DNA of 64,000 nt from Dokdonella sp. (GTDB lineage: Bacteria; Pseudomonadota; Gammaproteobacteria; Xanthomonadales; Rhodanobacteraceae), in the NCBI RefSeq assembly GCF_019634775.1, contig NZ_JAHCAS010000001.1:496001-560000 (forward strand), read 5' to 3'. Shown here in pieces: positions 37,746 to 62,789 of this stretch. The notes beneath the pieces were generated by a model. The model did no database searches. It was not told the origin of the DNA and saw only the letters and a list, made by a program, of their open reading frames with translations. Each line of letters begins with the position of its first letter. Within the stretch, counting starts at the first letter, position 1. A program made the position numbers and the translations under genes.

Positions 37746-39527
<1,782 letters not shown>

Positions 39528-49045: not shown

Positions 49046-49130
49046 CGCGCGTGCCTCCGTGGCGGGATCGGCCTGCGGGTGGTCCGAAGCGCGAAGGATA
49101 CCGAAGGCGTGTGAGAGCCGGGATTCGGTG

Positions 49131-49238
49131 GAGCCGGGATTGGGGATTGGGGATTCGGCAGAGTGGAAAAGCAGCGGCGCGCGATACCCTGCTTTGCCGA
49201 ATCCCGAATCCCGAATCCCGAATCCCCAATCCCGGCTC
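49131..49238. repeat. GGGATT palindromic element upstream of sigma gene
   Basis: GAGCCGGGATTGGGGATT, then GGGGATTCGGCA (49131-49160), pairs with TGCCGAATCCC...CCAATCCCGGCTC (49195-49238), with tandem GAATCCC units on the right arm. The 34-base centre has its own AAAGCAG/CTGCTTT stem. It sits between the divergent antiporter and sigma genes; its right end is two bases before an ATG (49241). Confidence 0.9.
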
Positions 49239-49279
49239 CCATGGTTGCTGCCAGCCCCCAAGCGAGCGAGGATTGGCCG

Positions 49280-55005: not shown

Positions 55006-55476
55006 ATGGACCTGCGCAAGATCAAGAAACTCATCGACCTGCTCGAGGAGTCCAACCTCGCCGAACTCGAGATCAAGGAAGGCGAGGAGATCGTCCGCCT
55101 GTCGCGTTTCCCGAAGGGCATGGCACCAAGCTTCGCGCCACAGGTACCGGTCGCGCACGTGCAGGTCGAAGCGCCGCGCGCCACCGAACGCGCACCCGAC
55201 AGTGGCGCTGCGGCAGCGACCGCAGCCGCTGACGCCGAACAAGGCCATACCGTGCGCTCGCCGATGGTCGGCACCTTCTATGCCTCGCCGAACCCTGAAG
55301 CGCCGCCGTTCGTGAAGGTCGGCCAGTCGGTCAAGGTCGGCGACACCCTCGGCATCATCGAGGCGATGAAGATGTTCAACCAGATCGAGGCCGACGTCTC
55401 CGGCACCGTCCTCGCGGTGCTTGCGCAGACCGGGCATCCCGTCGAGTTCGACGAACCGTTGTTCGTGATTGGCTGA
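55006..55476 (+). CDS. accB: Biotin carboxyl carrier protein of acetyl-CoA carboxylase
   Basis: The 156-residue protein starts [20 protein letters not shown] and has an Ala/Pro linker (about 45-80) and a biotinyl domain with [13 protein letters not shown], where the K is biotinylated. It carries CO2 between AccC and AccAD for malonyl-CoA synthesis. Normally accC follows directly; here a 461-base inverted-repeat unit lies between them. Confidence 0.98.
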
Positions 55477-55479
55477 ATA

Positions 55480-55940
55480 GCCGGGATTGGGGATTCGGAG
55501 TTCGGCTCGTGAAGGGTGATTCGTGATGTTTGATTCGGCAAAGCGGCCACGCGAACGACTGGACGTCCGGCAGGACGCCATGTCGCTCGTCGAGGCCGTC
55601 TGTCGCTTGACGACACGATTCCCGGACAACGGAAGGTTCGGCCTCGTCAGCGAGATGCGGCGCGCCGCGATCAGCATCCCGTCCAACATCTCGGAAGGTG
55701 CCGCAGGACGATCCACATCGGAATATCTGCGCTGCCCCTCAATGGCTCTCGGCTCGCTCGCGGAGCTCGATACACAGATCCAGATCACCAACCGCCTCGA
55801 ACTGTCGACGCCATCGACGGAACTCGGGGATCTGCTGCAACGGACTTTCGCTCGGCTGAATGCATTGATCCTCGCGATCGAGAAGCGGCGCAACGATGCG
55901 CGCTCTACCGAATTCCCAATCCCGAATCCCCAATCCCGGC
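55480..55940. mobile_element. Inverted-repeat unit carrying a four-helix-bundle gene
   Basis: GCCGGGATTGGGGATTCGG at 55480-55498 is repeated as its exact reverse complement at 55922-55940 (19 of 19). The right arm extends with further GAATCCC/AATTCCC units. The unit begins three bases after the accB stop and ends six bases before the accC start, and contains the S23-type gene. The arms are the same G-rich/C-rich sequence as the gene-free palindromes at 49131 and elsewhere. No transposase or clear target duplication was seen. Confidence 0.6.
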
Positions 55941-55957
55941 CCTCCCATGCTCGATAA
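55526..55957 (+). CDS. Four-helix-bundle protein, S23/IVP family
   Basis: The 143-residue protein (ATG 55526; GTG 55523 also in frame) has the family pattern [40 protein letters not shown], then [17 protein letters not shown], as in proteins encoded by 23S rRNA intervening sequences and the related Avd protein of diversity-generating retroelements. The last 15 residues ([16 protein letters not shown]) are encoded by the right repeat arm, and the stop overlaps the accC start by 11 bases. Function is unknown; family members bind nucleic acid. Confidence 0.85.
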
Positions 55958-57314
55958 GGTTGTCATCGCCAACCGTGGCGAAATCGCCCTGCGCATCCTG
56001 CGCGCCTGCCACGTGCTCGGCATCAAGACGGTGGCCGTGCATTCGACGGTCGATCGCAACCTCAAGCACGTCGGCATGGCCGACGAGTCGGTGTGCATCG
56101 GCCCGGCTCCGGCGGCGGAGAGCTATCTCAACGTGCCGGCGATCATCGCTGCCGCGGAAGTGACCGATGCGCAGGCAATCCACCCGGGCTACGGCTTCCT
56201 CAGCGAGAACGCCGACTTTGCCGAGCGTGTCGAGCAGTCGGGCTTCGTCTTCATCGGCCCGCGTGCCGACACGATCCGCATGATGGGCGACAAGGTCGAG
56301 GCGATCCGCGCCATGAAGGCGGCCGGCGTGCCCTGCGTGCCGGGTTCAGGCGGACCGCTCGGCGACGACGGCGCCGACAACGCACGCATCGCCCGCGACA
56401 TCGGCTATCCGGTCATCATCAAGGCGGCTGGCGGCGGCGGCGGCCGCGGCATGCGCGTGGTGCACACCGAGGCTCACCTGGCCAACGCGATCGCGATGAC
56501 CAAGAGCGAGGCCAAGGCCGCGTTCGGCAACGGCGAGGTCTACATGGAGAAGTTCCTCGAGAACCCGCGCCATGTCGAGATCCAGGTGCTGGCCGACGGC
56601 CAGGGCAATGCGATCCACCTCGGCGAGCGCGACTGTTCCATGCAGCGCCGCCACCAGAAGGTCGTCGAGGAAGCGCCGGCACCGGGCATCAGCGACGAAC
56701 TGCGCGCCGAGATCGGCAGAGTCTGCGTCGAGGCCTGCCTGCGCATCGGCTATCGCGGCGCCGGCACCTTCGAGTTCCTGTTCGAGGAAGGGCGCTTCTA
56801 CTTCATCGAGATGAACACACGCATCCAGGTCGAGCATCCGGTCACCGAGATGATCACCGGCATCGACCTCGTGCGCGAACAGCTGCTGATCGCTGCCGGC
56901 GAGAAGCTGTCGATCCGCCAGGAGGATGTACGCCTGACCGGCCATGCGATCGAGTGCCGCATCAATGCGGAAGACCCCGATACGTTCATGCCGAGCCCCG
57001 GCACGGTGAAACGATTCCTCGCCGCCGGCGGGCCAGGGGTGCGCACCGACACGCACATCTATGATGGCTACCGCATCCCGCCGAACTACGATTCGATGAT
57101 CGGCAAGCTGATCGTGCACGGCCGCGACCGCGCCACTGCCGTCGCGCGCATGCGCAACGCGCTGGCCGAGGTCGTCATCGAGGGTGTGAAGACGAACCTG
57201 CCGCTGCAGCAGCGCATCATGGCCGATGGCGGCTTCCAGACTGGCGGCATGAACATCCACTACCTCGAGAAGCGCATGGCCGAGGCGCGCGAGAAGGCGA
57301 TCGGCCTCGGCTGA
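55947..57314 (+). CDS. accC: Biotin carboxylase subunit of acetyl-CoA carboxylase
   Basis: The 455-residue protein is full length and starts [23 protein letters not shown]-grasp residues are intact ([43 protein letters not shown]). It carboxylates biotin on AccB. Upstream of its ATG is C-rich repeat sequence with no Shine-Dalgarno; translation may depend on coupling to the overlapping four-helix-bundle gene. Confidence 0.98.
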
Positions 57315-58326: not shown

Positions 58327-59121
58327 ATGTTCGCGCAATGCCCCGAGTGCCTGACCATCTTCCGCATCACCACGGCCGATCTCGCCGCGGCGCGCGGCAG
58401 CATGCGTTGCGGCCACTGCAATGCACTGTTCGATGCCCTGGCAACCTTGACCGCGCAGCTGCCGCCCGAGCCGATCGGCGAACTCGCGCGAAACCGCGAG
58501 CATGAATCGCCGCCGCAGCTCAGCCATCCGGTGTTCCGGCCGACGCCGCCAGGCCAGGGCTCGCTGTTTGTCGATGCGGATGACCGCCCGCGCCGCAGCC
58601 ATGGCAGCATGGCACCCGAGTTCGCGCGGCGTACGTCACGCACGCATGGAGCAAGGCGCAACGGTCGCTGGATCGCCGGCAGCGCCCTGCTCGCCGTCGT
58701 CCTCGCCGGCCAGATCGCCTGGGCCGAGCGGGCGCACTGGATCGATGATGCACGCTTCCGGCCATGGCTCGATACGGTCTGCGACACGCTCGGCTGCACC
58801 CTGCCGCTGCGCCGCGACGACGCTCTGCTCGAACTGGCCTCACGCGACATCCGCCCGCACCCATCGGTGCCTGGCGCACTGATCGTGTCGGCCACGCTGC
58901 ACAACGCGGCCGACTTCGCCCAACCATTCCCACCAGTGCAGGTCACCCTGTCCGACTTCGACGAGAAACGCATCGCCATGCGGCGTTTCCTGCCGCGCGA
59001 CTACCTCGCCGACGAGGCGGGCCTGCGCAAGGGGCTCGCTCCCGGCGCGAACGCCGCGATCGTGTTCGAAGTGGTCGATCCGGGGCGCAACGCGGTGGCG
59101 TTCGAGTTCAGCTTTGAATAG
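58327..59121 (+). CDS. Zinc-ribbon / DUF3426 membrane protein
   Basis: The 264-residue protein starts at ATG 58327 (MFAQCPECLTIFRITTADLA). C5/C8 and C29/C32 (MRCGHCNALF) make an MJ0042-type zinc ribbon; one membrane helix (about 118-138) follows, then a DUF3426 domain (about 145-264) with LIVSATLHNAADFAQPFPPV and a final FEFSFE. Function is unknown; it is conserved between prmA and fis in this group. Confidence 0.9.
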   Translation: MFAQCPECLTIFRITTADLAAARGSMRCGHCNALFDALATLTAQLPPEPIGELARNREHESPPQLSHPVFRPTPPGQGSLFVDADDRPRRSHGSMAPEFARRTSRTHGARRNGRWIAGSALLAVVLAGQIAWAERAHWIDDARFRPWLDTVCDTLGCTLPLRRDDALLELASRDIRPHPSVPGALIVSATLHNAADFAQPFPPVQVTLSDFDEKRIAMRRFLPRDYLADEAGLRKGLAPGANAAIVFEVVDPGRNAVAFEFSFE

Positions 59122-59213
59122 CAGGGAATGCGGCATGGTTGGGAGCAGGAGCGAAGAGCCGAGCCGTTTTGACCATTCCCTGCTCCCCATTCTCCATTCC
59201 CATCTTCTCCCCC
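59122..59213. repeat. GGGAATG palindromic element
   Basis: GCAGGGAATGCGGCATGG and CCATTCCCTGC...CCATTCCCATC arms surround AGCAGGAGCGAAGAGCCGAG. The centre is shared with the element at 62683-62777 (AAGCGAAGAGCTGAGCGGCT). It lies between the DUF3426 gene and fis. Confidence 0.75.
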
Positions 59214-61265: not shown

Positions 61266-61393
61266 GAGCCGGGAATGCGGAACAGGGAATGGAGCATGGT
61301 TGAAGCCGCCCTGTTCTTCGCTCCCTGCTCCTGACCAATCCGTGTTCCCCATACTCCATCCAAGGTTCCACCACTATTCCCCATTCCCGGCTC
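61266..61393. repeat. GGGAATG palindromic element upstream of purD
   Basis: GAGCCGGGAATG (61266-61277) pairs with CCATTCCCGGCTC (61381-61393). The right end stops four bases before the purD ATG, so no Shine-Dalgarno is present there. Confidence 0.85.
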
Positions 61394-62678: not shown

Positions 62679-62682
62679 GCTG

Positions 62683-62777
62683 GAGCGGGGAATCGAGAAT
62701 GGGGAATGGTCAAGAGCAAGAAGCGAAGAGCTGAGCGGCTTTGACCATTCCCGATTCCCTATTCGCCATTCCCGACT
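62683..62777. repeat. GGGAATGGTCAA palindromic element
   Basis: GGGAATGGTCAA (62702-62713) pairs perfectly with TTGACCATTCCC (62741-62752), and outer arms GAGCGGGGAAT / CCATTCCCGACTC extend the stem. Unlike at purD and accC, an AGGAG follows before the next gene. Confidence 0.9.
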
Positions 62778-62789
62778 CAGGAGTCCGCC

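Follow-up and report, generated by a model that had tools for sequence, protein, structure and literature searches.

The window, the whole stretch of 64,000 nt from Dokdonella sp. (Rhodanobacteraceae) analysed here, contains two genes of the same direction spaced by a 470-nt insert. From what is established for both protein families, we take these neighbours to be accB and accC (Table 1). Within the insert lies a gene for a four-helix-bundle protein of the S23 family. Its ORF matched PF05635 with an E value of 3.2e-24 (85.6 bits, cut-off 33.8) as well as TIGR02436, and it reads across the right arm of the insert to overlap the accC start. S23 was the sole gene recognised between the arms by ORF and domain search, and no transposase gene was recognised there. 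The site of the insert is intergenic, not 23S rRNA.

Both ends of the insert are formed by inverted arms. A perfect pair of 19 nt is made up of GCCGGGATTGGGGATTCGG on the left (55480-55498) and its reverse complement on the right (55922-55940), and the full arms make a longer pair of 26 nt with 88% complementarity. The left arm starts 3 nt past the accB stop, and the right arm ends 6 nt ahead of the accC ATG. A perfect 19-bp inverted repeat around an S23-type gene, fitted this tightly between its neighbours, had been claimed in a sequence-only reading of this DNA and was confirmed. Rather than a unique 19-mer, each arm is built of GGGATTS heptads in tandem. On the left, decayed heptads (GTGATTC, GTGATGT, TTGATTC) could be followed by eye up to ~55538.

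Table 1 Features of the accB-accC insert and gene-less heptad pairs in the window.
Feature	Position (nt)	Strand	Remarks
accB, biotin carboxyl carrier protein, upstream neighbour	55006..55476	+	Stop codon 55474-55476
Left arm, GGGATTS heptad array	55480..55505	+	Inverted-repeat comparison
S23 four-helix-bundle gene, PF05635	55523..55957	+	Start GTG 55523 or ATG 55526
Right arm, inverted GGGATTS heptad array	55915..55940	-	Three clean units at 55917-55937
accC, biotin carboxylase, downstream neighbour	55947..57314	+	ATG 55947-55949
Gene-less convergent heptad pair, GGGATT type	39406..39522	.	Pair search
Gene-less convergent heptad pair, 3 + 5 heptads	49136..49233	.	Pair search
Gene-less heptad pair, GGGAAT type, decayed	~59121..59201	.	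Ends by eye
Gene-less heptad pair, GGGAAT type, decayed	~61266..61393	.	Ends by eye
Gene-less heptad pair, GGGAAT type, more decayed than the 39406 and 49136 pairs	~62682..62778	.	Ends by eye

Heptad pairs without a gene lie elsewhere in the window. The sequence-only reading had placed such arms near 39405 and 49131, and diverged ones near 59122, 61266 and 62683; all were recovered, the latter three being of the GGGAAT type and more decayed. A long hairpin was predicted at 49128-49242 (-72.9 kcal/mol as RNA). At the site of the 39406 pair, an array was found at the same place in three relatives (G045, G059, G073), and at that of the 61266 pair in the same three and in G131.

The search for arms, which that reading had proposed to extend genome-wide, covered the 3.54 Mb of the own genome (4 contigs, 99.99% complete). 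There, GGGATTSGGGATTS, which stands for two heptads in a row, had 61 overlapping matches and the reversed pattern none, so the abundance of the arm heptads is beyond chance. Many of the matches formed convergent pairs that led with the G-rich strand and were spaced by some tens of bases. The S23 gene is present in a single copy.

Heptad arms at S23 loci in the family and across phyla

Of 147 genomes from the window's family, 53 carried PF05635, with one or two genes each, giving a family set of 64 S23 loci (65 match rows, two of which are pieces of one gene). An alignment from this family served as query for a scan of one genome per species (84,980 species), and the best 80 of 591 stretches were kept as the wide set, 76 of them with flanks long enough for analysis. 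Several phyla in the wide set rest on one locus, many of its genomes are metagenome bins and their naming may err, and one of its loci (L166) is the same as L068 of the family set.

Inverted arms were scored against two controls, one pairing the upstream flank of a locus with the downstream flank of another (cross-locus) and one pairing distant flanks of the same locus (far-flank). At a score of at least 14, arms were found at 53 of the 64 family loci, against 45/256 cross-locus and 1/62 far-flank pairs; we take the family cross-locus rate to reflect arm types shared among relatives. In the wide set (best 80 of 591), 51/76 loci reached this score, compared with 5/304 and 0/72 for the same controls. 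Raising the threshold to 16 left 48/64 family loci (37/256 cross-locus, 0/62 far-flank) and 43/76 of the wide set, again among the best 80 of 591 (3/304, 0/72). S23 genes lacking such arms, which the sequence-only reading had named as counting against it, do exist, as a minority only: 11/64 loci scored under 14 in the family and 25/76 among the best 80 of 591. Location in 23S rRNA was considered as the cause of arm-less loci and rejected, since no rRNA was found in 20 wide loci, 19 of which scored under 14.

The tandem period near S23 was 7 in all 38 of the 64 family loci that scored at least 12. Among the best 80 of 591, 53/76 loci scored, of which 40 had a period of 7, ten of 8, two of 9 and one of 2. 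Far flanks behaved differently: those of the family had periods of 3, 6, 9 and 12 only, which are codon-like, with period 7 in 0/62, and those of the wide set (best 80 of 591) were mostly multiples of three, with period 7 in 2/72. Period 8 was best in 11 loci of the wide set (best 80 of 591), 7 of them from Bacteroidota. By eye, 8-nt-periodic arms were seen at L177, L195, L207, L234 and L237. The most frequent arm length was four heptads, in 55 of 81 family arms and 31 of 83 wide arms (best 80 of 591), and the longest array near S23 had 26 units.

Fourteen phylum names are represented among the armed wide loci (best 80 of 591), several by one locus each. A further 39 plasmid records, mostly cyanobacterial, carried an S23 match; arms were present in 11 of the 12 read, against 11/132 cross pairs. 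Plasmid S23 sites included the gaps between nrdB and nrdA, cas6 and cas4, and cas10 and a cmr3-family gene, so that the elements of L248 and L250 lie between CRISPR genes on cyanobacterial plasmids. At a betaproteobacterial S23 locus (L174), a tandem pair of SAH riboswitches was seen upstream, at 814-1017. Carriage of S23 by phages was rejected, as one query found no match in 50,697 phage records.

The association between S23 and inverted arms is strong, and S23 with inverted heptad arms is a unit that recurs across many phyla. One family comprising the arms, S23 and S23-less relatives with the same arms had been proposed from the window; it was borne out far beyond the own genome.

Arm words, S23 clades and dispersed copies

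The heptad word varied between loci and was the same in the left and right arm of a locus. Words of the family included GGGAWTS, GGGACYC, GGAGTGA, GGTGAGC, GGGGAAC and GGAGATC, among others, and those outside it GTTCTCA, GTAGTCA, GGGAGTA and GAAGTCA. When the 11 arm types of the family were placed on an S23 tree, 10 changes were needed, which is the minimum, compared with at least 32 in each of 60 shuffles; the tree was a quick one of 62 of the 64 loci with 26 of its 59 inner branches open, and arm types were assigned by eye. Each S23 clade of the window's family thus has one heptad type. Within the clade at accB-accC, the share of GGGATT over GGGAAT in the left arm correlated with that in the right arm (rho 0.81, n=25, kinship ignored), and the GGGATT share of the arms with that of the dispersed copies (rho 0.77, n=14, kinship ignored).

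Genome-wide counts of double words were made in 36 genomes (28 with S23 and 8 without), which were picked by S23 type and not at random. A repeat was called present at five or more matches, a threshold set after the counts had been seen. With kinship ignored, GGGAWTS was present in 14/14 genomes with the cognate S23 vs 8/22 others (P 9e-5), GGGACTC in 5/5 vs 1/31 (P 2e-5) and GGAGTGA in 4/5 vs 5/31 (P 0.009). Low counts (such as 6 in G068, 7 in G067, 8 in G007) consist in part of the S23 locus's own arms. The exceptions without a cognate S23 were, for GGGAWTS, G031 (73), G043 (67), G099 (37) and G146 (30), with G002, G141, G067 and G070 at 5-9; for GGGACTC, G017 (47); and for GGAGTGA, G021 (38), G146 (36), G093 (31), G009 (18) and G003 (13). 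None of the three words was found genome-wide in five of the eight S23-free genomes (G004, G086, G006, G023, G011), the others reaching up to the counts listed for the exceptions.

Outside the family, GTTCTCA had 187 matches in the genome whose S23 has GTTCTCA arms and 0 in seven other distant genomes, and among eight distant genomes GGTGAAT was found in its own genome only, with 7 matches at four places, one of them the S23 arm. GTTCTCA arrays ~20 units long were seen at several places in G148, the genome of locus L241. The arm word of an S23 gene predicts, with exceptions, the dispersed gene-less heptad of the same genome.

An S23 structure model (pLDDT 94) matched the solved S23 chains 2gsc and 2rld, both from crystals with five chains each. 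It also resembled, more distantly, Avd of diversity-generating retroelements (DGR), with a TM score of 0.77 to 4dwl (Foldseek probability 1.00, E 0.22); the best matches to Avd and DGR ribonucleoprotein chains had TM scores of 0.76-0.79, probabilities of 0.97-1.00 and E values of 0.2-0.7. Of the nine S23 pairs with the least divergence (synonymous difference under 0.47, with members shared between pairs), eight gave a dN/dS ratio of 0.04-0.20 and the ninth, L039/L048, which had the fewest synonymous differences, one of 0.85. These ratios point to purifying selection on S23. The S23 of the window deviates at 7 of 21 conserved columns, compared with 0-3 in the other 23 sequences, and judged from these changes it is probably decaying and no longer functional.

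Filled and empty sites, and the origin of the elements

accB was located in 145 of the 147 family genomes, and S23 adjoined it in 25, judged by coordinates. We read 70 accB-accC junctions, 30 from the best matches and 40 from genomes without S23 there. Among the first 30 were 11 S23 elements (one without a scored gene), 4 gene-less pairs or remnants and 15 junctions with neither, 12 of which measured 22-32 nt from the accB stop to the accC motif. The other 40 comprised 33 short junctions (22-37 nt), 3 with other inserts and 4 with gene-less pairs. Empty sites in relatives, to which the sequence-only reading had looked for signs of mobility, were thus present: the gap was short and element-free at 45 of the 70 junctions, 40 of the 70 having been preselected as S23-free there. 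Four gene-less pairs at accB-accC were of other types (GGGCTGA, GGTGAGC, GGGACTC, GGGGAAC), so the same gap contains different heptad types across lineages. In G146, the word of the gene-less pair at this junction was identical to that of the S23 arms elsewhere in the genome.

Further inserts were seen at this junction. That of G099 (L098) has the length of an S23 element and heptad arms, with no S23 above threshold; the genome still contains 26 GGGATTS and 11 GGGAATS double heptads. A different insert of ~300 nt in G051 (L152) has inverted ends, CTCTGAGTGGCCCGCG, and no heptads.

Two relatives, G093 and G126, were compared over 200 kb around accB, the best aligned stretches being 78-93% identical. 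Four of six heptad arrays of G093 had both flanks in G126; of these, the two S23 arms were present in G126 and the two gene-less arrays were absent. One of the absent arrays is a ~90-nt GGAGTGA hairpin near an apparent start codon. This is a clean presence/absence site, at which no target duplication was seen; it is a single site, and identity there is ~80-90%. Gain and loss of the hairpin are equally possible. Near base 8744 of L279 (G093), a GTAGGAGCCCGCTCGCGGGCGATGC inverted pair resembling a classical REP element encloses a GGGATTC array in its loop; G126 lacks the entire structure.

Within the window's genus, gene-less elements mostly stayed in place. Of four in the window's genome (G000), two were not alignable and both others were common to each of G045, G059 and G073; G045 and G059 shared 3/3, and between G073 and G059 three of five were kept and two missing. 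Since the alignable elements, and so the dispersed copies, are mostly shared, the copies are old and movement is slow or past. Slow movement also follows when this sharing is taken together with the two Xanthomonas genomes in which, according to PMC4692102, 83% of repeats are conserved in place. Mobility of the family is likely.

Part of this evidence would suit a host regulator, with the heptad pairs as its sites near gene ends (a regulon) and its own arms autoregulatory. A regulator would be expected to show purifying selection, to match its arm type clade by clade and to keep its gene-less sites in place within the genus, and most of the published repeats, which lie near gene ends, are transcribed (PMC4692102). 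However, a regulon accounts poorly for an accB-accC gap that is short and empty in 45/70 junctions and elsewhere contains heptads of various types, S23 being present in some cases and not in others, for a whole ~90-nt hairpin present in one relative and absent in another, and for an S23 gene that itself stands between two arrays in many phyla. We therefore regard a regulator as unlikely. Still less likely is that another enzyme, a reverse transcriptase or a Y1/REP transposase, moves the elements with S23 as an accessory like Avd. The resemblance of the S23 model to Avd and DGR ribonucleoprotein chains and a logic like that of RAYTs speak for it, as does one weak Y1 match in the own genome (E 3.7e-6). 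Against it, in a test that covered the reverse transcriptase and Y1 families, and with kinship again ignored, PF00078 occurred in 13/53 S23 genomes vs 29/94 others (P 0.45), with no match in the own genome by profile search, and the Y1 transposase PF01797 in 37/53 vs 61/94 (P 0.59). G070 has neither, yet 141 GGGACTC matches. Both enzymes were rejected as required partners, given the missing association with S23.

The arrays might also be simple repeats grown by slippage and kept for G-quadruplexes, with S23 incidental. GGGNATC arrays do form quadruplexes in vitro (PMC4692102), and arrays near S23 can be very long, as noted above. Yet of the 51 wide loci with arms (best 80 of 591), no more than 10 had a four-GGG motif near S23, as had 29 of the 53 family loci with arms, and the G-quadruplex as common principle was rejected for its failure in the wide set. 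The far-flank and cross-locus controls tie the arrays to S23, and slippage leaves unexplained both the inverted pairs and the match of the two arms to the dispersed copies. We consider it highly improbable.

With moderate confidence, we instead favour the reading that the window holds a copy of an element with S23 between heptad arrays, whose S23, predicted to bind the arms, thereby likely promotes copying to new sites, including that of gene-less relatives. Such an element consists of an S23 gene with an array of some four 7-nt repeats on either side, the one array inverted to the other. The tandem repeat may be recognised by an S23 oligomer, each subunit perhaps taking one heptad, and the form recognised may be RNA or DNA, either single-stranded or folded into a hairpin. 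The inverted arms would let a transcript or the lagging strand fold into a hairpin, which host enzymes might copy or join into short intergenic gaps. Host enzymes are invoked because neither reverse transcriptase nor Y1 transposase showed an association with S23. We know of no catalytic activity of S23, so that the chemistry would rest on unnamed host enzymes. Gene-less pairs would be served by S23 in trans, in a logic as in REPIN/RAYT systems, where a slowly and vertically inherited driver goes with a population of short inverted pairs. That S23 recognises its own arms and spreads gene-less copies in trans seems most likely, and a mechanism of spread of this kind appears likely; the window copy is probably a decaying driver.

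Comparison with known systems and significance

RAYTs are inherited vertically and evolve slowly, the driver being flanked by its own repeats. The S23 elements resemble REPIN/RAYT systems in that a candidate driver gene comes with repeats of its own, short inverted pairs lacking the gene are numerous, and gene and repeats are cognate (PMC8266576, which describes REP and TnpA_REP); like RAYTs, S23 genes occur one or two to a genome, flanked by their own repeats, beside many gene-less inverted pairs. The REPIN/RAYT driver is a Y1 HUH protein (TnpA_REP), whereas that of the S23 elements would be a four-helix bundle (PF05635), and the arm of the former is a single palindrome with a GTAG motif, in contrast to arrays of 7-nt (or 8-nt) words.

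The intervening sequence (IVS) in the 23S rRNA of Coxiella burnetii likewise has an S23 ORF within terminal inverted arms; its terminal stem spans 28 bp, and two or three heptamers stand in tandem ahead of the ORF (PMC4990558). These heptamers and the stem fit the anatomy of the S23 elements found here. The IVS differs in that it sits in 23S rRNA and is excised by RNase III, while the element of the window is intergenic, and the passages of PMC4990558 on this insert draw no link to dispersed heptad repeats. Avd has the same four-helix-bundle fold, and its family kinship with S23 is stated in PMC10053308; Avd works in retroelements with a reverse transcriptase, unlike S23 in the window's genome.

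The heptads themselves are already known, without S23, as the quadruplex repeats GGGNATC/GGGGA(C/T)T of Xanthomonas and Nostoc, the same heptads as in S23 arms (PMC4692102). That source reports 70-75 convergent pairs in each of two Xanthomonas genomes, with four units preferred, and states that the repeats are mostly transcribed, of unknown function and generally not associated with mobile elements. Its authors treat them as simple repeats, unlike the S23 reading proposed here, and neither S23 nor accB occurs in its main text. In Nostoc, inverted pairs were few and none of the repeats lay on plasmids (PMC4692102), a result that does not speak for extending our reading to cyanobacteria; the plasmid S23 arms have other words. 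The TAACTGA repeats of Beggiatoaceae are intergenic 7-mers, patchy across lineages (PMC4679880). They differ from the inverted arrays of S23 elements in being nearly all direct and unpaired; in a speculation of the author, the mobile element could be a protein that binds the repeats, and S23 is absent from the main text.

Insertion sequences and MITEs have a transposase between inverted repeats, where S23 alone is found here. Cyanobacterial STRR repeats have reportedly been described by Mazel. STRR hairpins occur in cyanobacterial intergenic regions (PMC2670836). A published link between S23 and dispersed heptads was not visible among the open-licence PMC papers searched.

A wider reading is tentative, and we give it somewhat less than even weight: S23 proteins could be the drivers of a phylum-wide class of mobile hairpins without a known transposase, whose gene-less offspring would be the source of bacterial heptanucleotide repeats so far regarded as unconnected oddities, with the IVS and Avd as side branches. 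The S23 oligomer would then read tandem 7-nt words at both ends, or 8-nt words in some lineages, and the repeats so explained would be GGGNATC of xanthomonads, cyanobacterial STRR and perhaps TAACTGA of Beggiatoaceae.

For S23, two crystal structures and at least 7,972 homologues are available, and a function was not found in the literature searched. The heptanucleotide repeats of cyanobacteria and xanthomonads have so far been described without an agent. The tie between them gives S23 a predicted ligand, the repeat of its own arms, and gives the repeats a candidate driver. Because each S23 clade has its own word, the existing pairs of protein and word lend themselves to deciphering a recognition code. 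The finding suggests that no known transposase is needed for short DNA hairpins to spread, and if S23 drives the gene-less array pairs, several old and puzzling bacterial repeats would be explained.
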